From the NCBI GenBank assembly GCA_016937255.1, contig JAFGWG010000187.1, positions 1 through 39,967 of the forward strand: 39,967 nt of DNA. Direction: 5' to 3'. Made by a program: the position numbers and the translations under genes. This document shows positions 37,627 to 39,967 of this stretch, piece after piece. The stretch is from Bacteroidales bacterium. GTDB taxonomy: Bacteria > Bacteroidota > Bacteroidia > Bacteroidales > DTU049. How positions within the stretch are numbered: the first letter of the stretch is position 1; every line of letters starts with the position of its first letter. The notes beneath the pieces are model-generated. The model searched no databases and was not told the DNA's origin. It saw only the letters and a list, made by a program, of their open reading frames with translations.

Positions 37627-39018
37627 TTAAAGGTGAATTACTTCGTCGTATGCAGCAGCAACAGCCTCCATTACCGCTTCAGACATGGTCGGGTGCGGAT
37701 GAACAGCCTTAATAATTTCGTGTCCGGTGGTTTCTAGTTTGCGTGCAACCACAGCTTCGGCAATCATTTCGGTAACATGATCTCCAATCATATGCGCACC
37801 CAGCCACTCGCCGTATTTGGCATCGAATATTACTTTAACAAATCCGTCGGTTTTGCCACTGGCTTTGGCTTTTCCACTTGCAGAATACGGGAATTTACCC
37901 ACTTTAATTTCATAACCGGCTTCAAGAGCTGCTTTTTCTGTCATTCCAACAGAAGCTACCTCCGGATAAGTATAGGTACATCCGGGAATATTTTTATAAT
38001 CGAGTGGATCCACATCCATTCCTGAAATTTTCTCCACACAAATAATGCCTTCGTGTGAGGCGACGTGTGCCAGCGCAGGACCATGAACAATATCGCCAAT
38101 GGCATACACGCCATCTACATTAGTGCGATAGAAATCGTCGACCTCAATTTTGCCTTTTTCGTGCTTAATGCCGGTTTCTTCCAACCCAATTCCTTCCAAA
38201 TTTGTGGAAACACCCACAGCAGAAAGCACAATATCCACCTCAACGGTTTCCTCGCCTTTTTTGGTTTTAATCTGCACTTTGCATTTCGTACCCGATGTAT
38301 CCACACTGAGCACTTCAGACGAGGTCATCACCTTCATTTTATTCTTTTTGAAAGAACGCTCGAGTTGCTTAGACACTTCCTCATCTTCGAGGGGAACGAT
38401 ATTGGGTAAATATTCCACAAGGGTTACATCGGTTCCCATGGTTTGATAAAAATAGGCAAACTCGGAACCAATGGCACCACTACCAATCACCAGCATGCTT
38501 TCAGGTTGCTTGTCCAACGTCATGGCTTCGCGGTAACCAATAATTTTCTTTCCGTCTTGTTTCATATTTGGCAATTCACGAGAGCGGGCGCCTGTAGCCA
38601 GAATAATATGATTGGCTTCGTAGTTCTCGGAGCTGCCGTCTTCTTTCTTTACTTCCACTTTCTTGCCCGGAAGCACTTTGCCGAATCCCTGAAGCACATC
38701 AATTTTATTTTTCTTAAACAGAAACTGTATACCCTTGCTCATGGCATCGGCCACACCACGTGAACGGGCAACAACAGCCTTAAAATCGGGTTTTACTTCG
38801 CCGGTAACGGTAATTCCGTATTCTGCGGCATGTTTCATATTATTAAAAACCTCGGCACTTTTCAGCAGCGCTTTGGTTGGGATACATCCCCAGTTGAGGC
38901 AAATTCCGCCCAGTTCAGAGCGTTCTACAACAGCAGTTTTCATTCCGAGCTGAGAGGCTCTGATGGCCGCAACATATCCTCCGGGGCCGCTTCCTATCAC
39001 TATAAGATCGTATTTCAT
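37627..39018 (-). CDS. lpdA: Dihydrolipoyl dehydrogenase (E3)
   Basis: The 463-residue flavoprotein reoxidises dihydrolipoamide of 2-oxoacid dehydrogenase or glycine-cleavage complexes. It has IGSGPGGYVAAIRASQLG (FAD), the redox disulfide GGICLNWGCIPTK (Cys40, Cys45), VIGSGAIGSEFAYFY (NAD), AIGDIV (second FAD contact) and the C-terminal HPHPTMSEAV with His442 and Glu447 as active-site base pair. It starts at ATG 39018 after a probable -7 element. No E1 or E2 genes are adjacent. Its 3' end is 9 bp from asnB. Confidence 0.97.
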   Translation of the reverse strand: MKYDLIVIGSGPGGYVAAIRASQLGMKTAVVERSELGGICLNWGCIPTKALLKSAEVFNNMKHAAEYGITVTGEVKPDFKAVVARSRGVADAMSKGIQFLFKKNKIDVLQGFGKVLPGKKVEVKKEDGSSENYEANHIILATGARSRELPNMKQDGKKIIGYREAMTLDKQPESMLVIGSGAIGSEFAYFYQTMGTDVTLVEYLPNIVPLEDEEVSKQLERSFKKNKMKVMTSSEVLSVDTSGTKCKVQIKTKKGEETVEVDIVLSAVGVSTNLEGIGLEETGIKHEKGKIEVDDFYRTNVDGVYAIGDIVHGPALAHVASHEGIICVEKISGMDVDPLDYKNIPGCTYTYPEVASVGMTEKAALEAGYEIKVGKFPYSASGKAKASGKTDGFVKVIFDAKYGEWLGAHMIGDHVTEMIAEAVVARKLETTGHEIIKAVHPHPTMSEAVMEAVAAAYDEVIHL

Positions 39019-39032
39019 TTCAGAATTTTTTT

Positions 39033-39040
39033 CAAAATTA
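39033..39040 (-). promoter_or_regulatory. Bacteroidota -7 element for lpdA-asnB-GT4
   Basis: TAATTTTG on the minus strand fits TAnnTTTG and ends 15 nt before the lpdA ATG, giving a leader of roughly 8-10 nt. The -33 element is unclear. Confidence 0.5.
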
Positions 39041-39237
39041 CAAAAATCGGAGGAATGAATTATGTTTTATGATATATGATATGTGATTTATGATATAATA
39101 CCTTCAGCATTGATAATATATTTTGATTTTTATGAGGAGTTTTCTTTTTAGCCACTGATACACGGATGTTTTGGAACGCAGACCTGTGACGCAAGTCGTG
39201 AGGACGCAGATTTTAGGATTGCTTGATATCGTACTTC

Positions 39238-39259
39238 AATGCCGACTTATAGCGGCATT
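39238..39259. repeat. 7-bp inverted repeat, 8-nt loop
   Basis: AATGCCG pairs with CGGCATT. It directly follows a TACTTC word, and its right arm starts the block that matches 4968-4987. Confidence 0.6.
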
Positions 39260-39272
39260 ATTCAAACATACC

Positions 39273-39298
39273 ATAGCATTTCACTTTGTTCATGCTAT
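39273..39298. repeat. 7-bp inverted repeat, 12-nt loop
   Basis: ATAGCAT (39273-39279) pairs with ATGCTAT (39292-39298). CC and GG outside can extend the stem past a 1-nt bulge. Confidence 0.5.
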
Positions 39299-39325
39299 TG
39301 GTTGTTTTGTTTAAGATAAACCTGC

Positions 39326-39343
39326 ATGATTGCAAGCAATCAT
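39326..39343. repeat. Perfect 8-bp inverted repeat with AA loop
   Basis: ATGATTGC, AA, GCAATCAT. It has the same design as the hairpins at 4957-4976 and 39542-39555. Confidence 0.75.
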
Positions 39344-39500
39344 TTGGTTTCGCAGATTAAAAGTAAAACGCTATAAACGCAACTACTCACTCGGCGTAGA
39401 TTGCATCTGCGACGAAACTATTTACTGATTTTCTCTACCACGCAATACTCGCTCTCGCAACCACACTCACTCTGTTTTAGCCACGGATGCGCAGATAAAA

Positions 39501-39541
39501 ATGCATTGTATCATACTTCAATGATAACTGATACACTGCAT
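39501..39541. repeat. 13-bp inverted repeat with one mismatch, 15-nt loop
   Basis: ATGCATTGTATCA (39501-39513) pairs with TGATACACTGCAT (39529-39541) except at one position. The loop holds the TACTTCAATG word. Confidence 0.7.
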
Positions 39542-39555
39542 GTCAGCAAGCTGAC
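39542..39555. repeat. Perfect 6-bp inverted repeat with AA loop
   Basis: GTCAGC, AA, GCTGAC. It directly abuts the longer stem at 39501-39541 and precedes the TGCCACGGATG unit. Confidence 0.65.
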
Positions 39556-39641
39556 TTTTGTGCCACGGATGTTTTTTTATGAACACAGATGACGCAGATT
39601 AAACAGATTTCTTATTGATACACCTTCAATGGACACAGATA

Positions 39642-39661
39642 GAATCAGGCGAGCCTGATTC
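39642..39661. repeat. Perfect 9-bp inverted repeat with GA loop
   Basis: GAATCAGGC, GA, GCCTGATTC. It is GC-richer than the surroundings, and no T-tract follows. Confidence 0.7.
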
Positions 39662-39668
39662 GGGGGAA

Positions 39669-39709
39669 ATCCTGCCATCGTTGCGACGAGAGGAGGATCA
39701 TGGCAGGAT
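39669..39709. repeat. Perfect 10-bp inverted repeat, 21-nt loop
   Basis: ATCCTGCCAT (39669-39678) pairs with ATGGCAGGAT (39700-39709). The purine-rich loop is unpaired. Confidence 0.75.
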
Positions 39710-39729
39710 GTGCGGTGGCATTCTCGTTC

Positions 39730-39769
39730 CTGTTCCATGACCCTCATTCTTCGGGACGATGAAACAGGG
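39730..39769. repeat. Long imperfect inverted repeat
   Basis: CCTGTTCCAT (39730-39739) pairs with ATGAAACAGG (39760-39769) at 9 of 10 positions. The inner GACCC and GGGAC can extend it with one mismatch. A T-rich tract follows after 39770, so terminator activity toward the Rhs fragment is conceivable. Confidence 0.6.
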
Positions 39770-39871
39770 ATTTTCTTTCCTATTTTTTGCTTTACCACTT
39801 GGTTTTCTCGTTGGATTTTCGTAATTTTACACTCACAAATTTGATTAGTTTTTAGTCGGCGGAAATACAGC

Positions 39872-39967
39872 ATGAATCTCGAAAAAACTTTGTATATTAG
39901 TCCTCTAATGGTGATGAACGAGCAAGAATATACAAAGCACTACTTCATTGAAGGCGAGCGTGTGGCT
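39872..39967 (+). CDS. Rhs-repeat-type core fragment, 5'-truncated and running off the window
   Basis: The 32 visible residues (LYISPLMVMNEQEYTKHYF, then IEGERVA) resemble the conserved YVSPxxVxxxxxYTKHYYIExERI stretch in the core of Bacteroidota Rhs/YD-repeat proteins. In a full protein that stretch lies deep inside. Here an in-frame TGA at 39842-39844 and the hairpin mosaic lie directly upstream, and there is no signal peptide. This therefore looks like a displaced 3' module (an orphan Rhs tip or a pseudogene) rather than a complete gene. The ATG at 39872 is the only available start. Recognition rests on a short stretch. Confidence 0.5.
   Translation, partial: MNLEKTLYISPLMVMNEQEYTKHYFIEGERVA

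Follow-up and report, generated by a model that had tools for sequence, protein, structure and literature searches.

The window analysed here, a stretch of 39,967 nucleotides, is contig C72 of the genome of an uncultured Bacteroidales bacterium (3.85 Mb, 254 contigs). The protein encoded at 37627–39018 on the minus strand was identified as dihydrolipoyl dehydrogenase (lpd) by a match to the TIGR01350 model, and its best matches among genome contigs were Bacteroidales MAGs. Upstream of lpd, and ahead of an Rhs-like frame whose start is at 39873 and which the contig end truncates, lay a gap of about 855 bp, the longest in the window (the second-longest was 292 bp). Positions 39019–39137 of the gap were AT-rich, structureless DNA (z 0.86); the remainder was a mosaic of repeats. 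The distinctive trait of the region is that it is the sole long gap of the window and is made of dispersed repeats.

Similarity search showed that the stretch was not unique in its own genome, where it had 46 matches excluding itself (47 with itself); the result named in the original prediction as its refutation, a region found nowhere else, was not obtained. When compared with 71 merged regions of the same genome (193 kb of 3.85 Mb in total), 39137–39872 was fully covered by 74 alignments; each base was matched by at least one other region, and all except two bases by at least two. These regions were chosen by similarity to the stretch, to its words or to RAYT families, and the copy numbers given below are lower bounds and the frequencies those of that sample. 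Because the alignment ends fell at recurring internal borders, modules were delimited and named E1 to E9 (Table 1).

Table 1. Modules and words of the mosaic upstream of lpd, with the basis on which each was delimited (z, folding relative to shuffled sequence)
Feature	Positions	Strand	Basis
E1: W1 word (CCACTGATACACGGATG ... ACGCAGATT) enclosing a weak hairpin (other copies: CACGCAAGGCGTG)	39137–39213	+	5 aligned copies including the window; 39168–39215, z -0.15
Tag copy 1, consensus GCATGGTATCGTACTTCA, 2 mismatches	39221–39238	+	Genome pattern search
E2: pair of hairpins (one of the GCCGCCTTTGGCGGC type in further copies; the other ACCATAGCAT...ATGCTATTGGT)	39239–39329	+	9 aligned copies including the window; 39236–39316, z -5.64
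E3: hairpin ATGATTGC-AA-GCAATCAT and CGCAGATT word	39317–39360	+	3 copies including the window; 39315–39352, z -2.63
E4: REP palindrome TCGGCGTAGAT-TGC-ATCTGCGACGA, conserved tail AAACTAT	39388–39425	+	39385–39425, z -3.31; 19 pattern matches; RAYT flanks; covariation
Unstructured stretch ending in W1 word (GCCACGGATGCGCAGAT at 39480)	39433–39499	+	39425–39480, z 0.90
Tag copy 2, 2 mismatches to consensus	39503–39520	+	Genome pattern search; W1-tag order
Hairpin slot: CTGATACACTGC, hairpin GTCAGC-AA-GCTGAC, TTTTGTGCCACGGATG	39528–39574	+	Different hairpins between the same flanks in L003, L121, and L023; 39535–39562, z 0.03
W1 word, long form (GCCACGGATG ... ACACAGATGACGCAGATTAAACAGATT)	39562–39612	+	Phylum-sample pattern search
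E7: hairpin GAATCAGGC-GA-GCCTGATTC	39636–39663	+	Near-identical L018 and L027 copies; 39636–39666, z -4.11
E8: REPIN-like REP doublet (CATGAYCCTC...TCGGGACGATG in two inverted copies) followed by a T-rich tail	39673–39778	+	39667–39772, z -2.77
E9: AT-rich promoter-like leader GTAATTTYRCACTCGCAAATTTGATTAGTTTTTCGTCGGCG	39798–39865	+	9 genome matches including the window, control 0; 39780–39872, z 0.09

Two more mosaics of the same modules were found, at L007 (C230:2532–3400) and L003 (C132:10470–10910). The L007 mosaic had five tags, all in one orientation; other words, e.g., CTCGCAAAGGCGCAAAGAACGC, were present as well. Module copies at seven places (L008, L012, L018, L027, L173, L178, and L179) lay a few hundred bases or less from a contig end, and the repeats therefore probably break assembly; the window's own end falls just past the mosaic, within the Rhs-like frame. 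Repeat search of the window found no inverted pair enclosing the whole stretch. A phage or plasmid origin was rejected, as the stretch had no phage or plasmid match at E 1e-5; one exact composite pattern had 0 matches in viral contigs.

The original prediction had described at least eight inverted repeats between 39061 and 39856, several with perfect arms of 6–10 bp and a 2-nt loop, interleaved with repeated words, at a density far above anything else in the window. Inverted repeats were present, but only four had perfect arms of at least 6 and a loop of at most 6 nt. Three of the four had 2-nt loops: 39326–39343 (arms of 8, loop AA), 39542–39555 (arms of 6, loop AA), and 39642–39661 (arms of 9, loop GA). 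The claim about density did not hold, as this 800-base bin held 4 such hairpins while other bins of the window held up to 6, and hairpin density was discarded as the key property on account of these equal or higher counts. The repeated words were borne out, each occurring at several positions: GCCACGGATG at 39480 and 39562 and CGCAGATT at 39205, 39351, and 39593, both absent from the rest of the window, and CTTCAATG at 39234, 39516, and 39624 as well as at 4 places before 39061. The modular order of word, hairpin, and word that had been noticed was also real and was repeated at other places in the genome.

Folding analysis showed that the whole stretch was moderately better than shuffled sequence (DNA: z -2.12, with 0 of 20 shuffles as good; RNA: z -2.07, with 1 of 20), while several single modules were no better. 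The strongest were E2, E7, and E4 (Table 1), together with 39660–39712 (z -3.29), and the best-folding plus-strand 100-mer of the window started at 39676. The hairpin parts of E1 and of the slot, the unstructured stretch, E9, and 39720–39775 (z -0.83) folded like shuffles. The whole window had 0 Rfam matches at gathering score, and identity with a known RNA family was rejected on this ground; with a whole-region z of about -2, the suggestion that the stretch is a source of structured RNA found no support.

RAYT (TnpA-REP) is a single-strand DNA nuclease/transposase, and genes of this type were found beside copies of E4. The E4 pattern CGTAGATTGNATCTACGNCGAAA had 19 matches at up to 3 mismatches and 0 in the reversed control; these correspond to 18 places, since one palindrome was counted on both strands. 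Six of the 18 places adjoined RAYT genes or fragments, at C51, C85, C17, and C9; these are the four places that this genome was listed as having for the RAYT subfamily of P0001, and E4 was present at each of them. P0001 (181 aa) exceeded the cut-offs of NF047646 (REP-associated tyrosine transposase) and Y1_Tnp, had one PDB sequence match, to 4er8 (TnpArep, E 0.00033), and carried the motifs NHVH, YIHNNP, and WTHH. REP-type transposases, which the original prediction had proposed to look for, were present, and E4 flanks genes or fragments of one of their subfamilies.

Alignment of 14 copies of the E4 stem showed that 92.2% of the cells were paired and that 5 of 11 pairs had changes on both sides. 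Four of five covariation measures were reached by 0 of 500 shuffles and the fifth, further pair types, by 73 of 500; when the alignment was slid out of register, the pairing measures were far lower. Homologous RAYTs were surveyed at 29 loci, one per genome, in other genomes of the order. A strong palindrome lay within 300 nt of the RAYT match at 20 of the 29 loci, at 10 of them on both sides, and strong palindromes occurred in 30 of 56 RAYT flank blocks compared with 10 of 134 distant blocks. These palindromes differed in sequence; several shared a design in which a long stem closes a loop of 3 nt and the halves are TCGGC- or CGAAG-like.

E4 has the form of a REP: it is a short dispersed intergenic palindrome with an 11-pair stem, and some of its copies lie beside RAYT genes of its own genome. 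In the alignment, GTAG lay inside the stem and not 5′ of the hairpin, and E4 was rejected as a classical GTAG-type REP for this reason. Judged from its sequence and neighbours, E4 is a REP by RAYT association, without the classical GTAG tag. In all, the genome held 15 distinct RAYT- or IS200-like places (L031–L036, L188–L200), 2 of them above the NF047646 cut-off; 11 of 13 RAYT-like places scored under the model's curated cut-off. Several had palindromes of their own beside them: CCCCGAAGGGG at L032, GGAATGAATTCC at L031, TGTCAGACGACCTTTGAGGCGTCTGACA at L036, and a AAAACCTGTCAGGTTTT-type palindrome at L191.

E8 matched about 20 places in its own genome. For the doublet analysis 16 copies were aligned and L008, cut by a contig end, was omitted. 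The two halves were inverted in 12 of 15 copies, in which the score of the reverse-complemented left half against the right half was reached by at most 1 of 500 shuffles that keep base composition only; L020, L015, and L023 were the exceptions. E8 thus has the inverted REP pair of a REPIN. Its alignment-wide fold was weak, with 8 pairs of which 3 had changes on both sides, and the pairs predicted in the consensus fold were confined to the right half and the loop. Neither E8 nor E2 had a match at E ≤0.01 in the RAYT loci L031–L036 and L188–L200 (one E2 match had E 0.15), and both were rejected as the REP of a resident RAYT; the cognate RAYT expected of a REPIN was not found for E8 in the assembled RAYT loci, and unassembled DNA could hold one. 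E8 was also rejected as a CGTC REP, because the reverse-strand CGTC sits inside an imperfect stem.

A T-rich tail was present in 11 of 15 E8 copies, and the upstream frame was oriented toward the element in 10 of 14. Because of these two features E8 may end transcription, a weak case that fails for the window copy, whose upstream frame points away. Gene contexts were taken from open frames of at least 90 or at least 100 codons, not curated genes, and cover the neighbours of E2 and E8 and the lpd gaps. Two neighbour tallies assigned a few neighbours differently; the tail and orientation counts come from one of them. Terminator-like sites between 37500 and 39967 numbered 8 compared with 2.4 expected, and two of them lay in the region of the mosaic. 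These observations, together with the promoter-like E9 that precedes several frames, could be read as signs that the region serves lpd or the Rhs fragment in regulation or at the RNA level, through terminators, a small RNA, or RNA processing sites, and that the repeats spread as useful parts. However, five of the eight terminator-like sites lay within lpd and none on E8, no module word was found closer than 5 mismatches in the gap before lpd in 21 relatives (of 80 loci), and the Rfam result, the whole-region fold, and the orientation at the window copy of E8 also speak against such a region, which we regard as very improbable.

With up to 3 mismatches allowed, the tag consensus was found 35 times in the own genome, whereas its reversed control gave 3 matches. 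A W1 word (CAGAT/CGGAT) lay at most 25 nt ahead of 13 of the 17 tags in the merged regions, where 4.2% would be expected; two of the four tags without W1 (L129 and L137) resemble chance matches and were retained in the 17. The composite unit is ordered as W1 word, tag, hairpin, and W1 word. What follows the tag was read by eye in these rows. E2 followed in 4, GAGACGTC-type hairpins in 2 (L007 and L121), three further kinds of hairpin once each (L001, L003, and L007), and a variant of the E4 palindrome once (L005), while five had no hairpin. Tags thus precede six different hairpins, among them a variant of the RAYT-linked REP.

At four places (L001, L003, L121, and L023), three unrelated hairpins were found between CTGATACACTG on the left and TTGTGCC on the right; L007 had the left flank of the slot only. 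The slot hairpin of the window is short. In E2, both-side changes were found in 2 of 15 consensus pairs, and the covariation term was about 0. The energy of hairpins after the tag was set aside as a signal, as it was only weakly below random (-6.2 compared with -4.9, sd 2.6). The occurrence of unrelated hairpins between constant flanks is the most unusual feature of the mosaic, with few copies behind it. A bolder reading, which we consider a long shot, is that W1 and the tag form a fixed platform beside a slot that exchanges unrelated hairpins; the platform would be the target of a RAYT-like single-strand enzyme that puts hairpins in or swaps them, and new REP types would arise by capture into a standing array. 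If the exchangeable slot is true, it would offer a testable case of how new REP types originate and spread. Otherwise, the stretch is an ordinary repeat cluster that explains assembly breaks and warns against reading such gaps as regulatory.

The leader copies of E9 (L242–L250; consensus around CGCAAATTTGATTAGTTTTTCGTC) preceded Rhs-like frames and other frames, two of which we take from their translations to be lipoprotein-like and sigma-factor-like; the leader is possibly a dispersed promoter. The homologue of the Rhs-like frame in L248 matched the Rhs core TIGR03696, and L022 and L248 shared 39798–39966 at 83%, leader and Rhs start included. A recombination hot spot for Rhs modules had also been put forward; the hairpins would then serve as crossover sites, and an Rhs-like fragment does adjoin the mosaic. 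The DNA common to the two Rhs places nevertheless starts at the leader, outside the hairpin modules, and L022 suggests that Rhs fragments occur elsewhere without those modules. Since copies of E2 and E8 adjoin many different frames, nothing ties the mosaic itself to Rhs, and a hot spot of this kind is extremely unlikely.

The distribution of the modules in other genomes was uneven. At up to 1 mismatch the tag occurred 10 times in its own genome; among 392 other genomes of the order, 8 had a single match, and the reversed control matched in 3 genomes. In sequence terms the tag looks essentially private to the lineage. E8 also looks private to the lineage by similarity: in 294 other genomes, with two candidates scored per genome, a single weak match of 46 bases was obtained. 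The whole stretch had short matches in 5 of 58 relatives, with 8 candidates scored per genome. Absence in other genomes is weak evidence, because so few candidates per genome (8 or 2) were scored. Of 296 genomes sampled from the phylum, 40, the own genome among them, contained the W1 pattern ACACAGATNACGCAGATT (control 0), and the W1 word is, as far as this pattern tells, phylum-wide. Genome G446 held 56 copies of the pattern. There the phylum-wide word ACACAGATGACGCAGATT forms a palindrome that has a periodicity of about 10 bases and, in most fetched copies, is nested in an element with GAGACC-type ends; these resemble the IS5-type ends in a table of PMC4596501.

In G446 (L257–L266) a palindrome about 90 bases long had the W1 word at its core and lay inside an element with the terminal inverted repeats GAGACCTCTGAAAAA and TTTTTCAGAGGTCTC; both ends were present in 6 of 10 fetched copies and the left end in 8 of 10. 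In the own genome, the unstructured stretch was matched by L014 (39433–39532, at 79%) and L003, and runs of about 180 bases recurred: L002 matched 39201–39383 and L003 matched 39315–39496. Such an element and such runs would fit a single long MITE of composite build, like BOX or BrickBuilt, which was copied whole and then decayed, leaving the modules as its fragments. This origin appears unlikely, though, as the order and number of modules differ among places (L003 and L007) and E4, E8, and E9 were found alone at many places.

The mosaic is probably best explained as several non-autonomous, mostly palindromic families of interspersed repeats that accumulated in one tolerant gap. The original suggestion of a REP/MITE-like cluster was largely right, since the stretch is not unique, E4 flanks resident RAYT genes, and E8 is an inverted doublet. 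The covariation of the E4 stem, the palindromes beside homologous RAYTs, the order of W1 and tag, and the mosaic-free lpd gap of the 21 relatives examined also speak for the accumulation of such repeats. E4 would spread as a single-stranded hairpin cut and joined by RAYT-type enzymes, which is likely for E4; by analogy, E8 is assumed to have spread likewise, through a RAYT now lost, diverged, or unassembled. Fresh copies would insert into or beside older copies, recombination among the repeated words would shuffle the modules, and copies would pile up where insertion is harmless. No host function would be required, and any ending of transcription by E8 would be incidental. No filled/empty site pair was found, and we infer mobility, with the targeting of older copies and the shuffling. 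L002 and L003 were tried as the empty site relative to the window after E3 and abandoned, as L002 enters a coding end there. Points against the accumulation of palindromic repeats are the lack of intrinsic structure in some modules, the scores of most RAYT-like places under the curated cut-off, the absence of E8 and E2 matches (E ≤0.01) from the RAYT loci compared, the fifth covariation measure of E4, and the position of GTAG inside the E4 stem.

No description of these repeat words or of such mosaics in Bacteroidetes was found in an open-access library. In the available text of PMC6006769, RAYT subclass 2.6 is described as mostly Bacteroidetes, with atypical flanking structures that have copies elsewhere in the genome, and its table gives the motifs NH[LIV]H, YIH[QN]NP, and WQ. 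E4 resembles these structures in flanking RAYT genes and being dispersed, and NHVH and YIHNNP of P0001 fit the table; the WTHH of P0001, however, has T after W where the table has WQ, and the assignment is by motif only (PMC6006769). In the definition given there, a classical REP has the tetranucleotide GTAG or GTGG just 5′ of the hairpin (PMC6006769). Unlike that system, the E4 hairpin has no GTAG outside its stem, and the remaining mosaic is untied to RAYT. The present results put actual sequences to the RAYT-linked palindromes that are called 'atypical' in Bacteroidetes, and one such palindrome sits within composite repeats.

E8 is like the REPINs described in the available part of PMC3116915 in pairing two REPs in inverted order, single REPs being what apparently remains of such pairs, and differs in having only about 20 copies and no cognate RAYT found. 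The CGTC REP, as defined in the accessible text of PMC3733652, has a terminal CGTC outside a stem of 8–9 bp and a tail of CCA. The streptococcal BOX element is also composite, its outer modules being constant and its middle variable, but BOX, as far as PMC3049150 describes it, varies the copy number of one inner module, whereas here unrelated hairpins fill one slot. BrickBuilt of Porphyromonas gingivalis is an intergenic composite element in Bacteroidales with 19 copies and promoter-active parts; its 23-nt tandem repeats and GAGACC-type terminal inverted repeats, as given in the available text of PMC4596501, were unseen in the window stretch. In BIMEs and the Neisseria mosaics, according to the same portion of PMC3733652, different palindromic repeats are clustered in one gap and REPs are interleaved with other families, as they are here; the present stretch differs from the Neisseria mosaics in its repeat families and in the ordered units of W1, tag, and hairpin. 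By analogy, the stretch would work like a BIME or a Neisseria-type mosaic, that is, as a mostly familiar repeat cluster with an unusual layout of word, tag, and hairpin.
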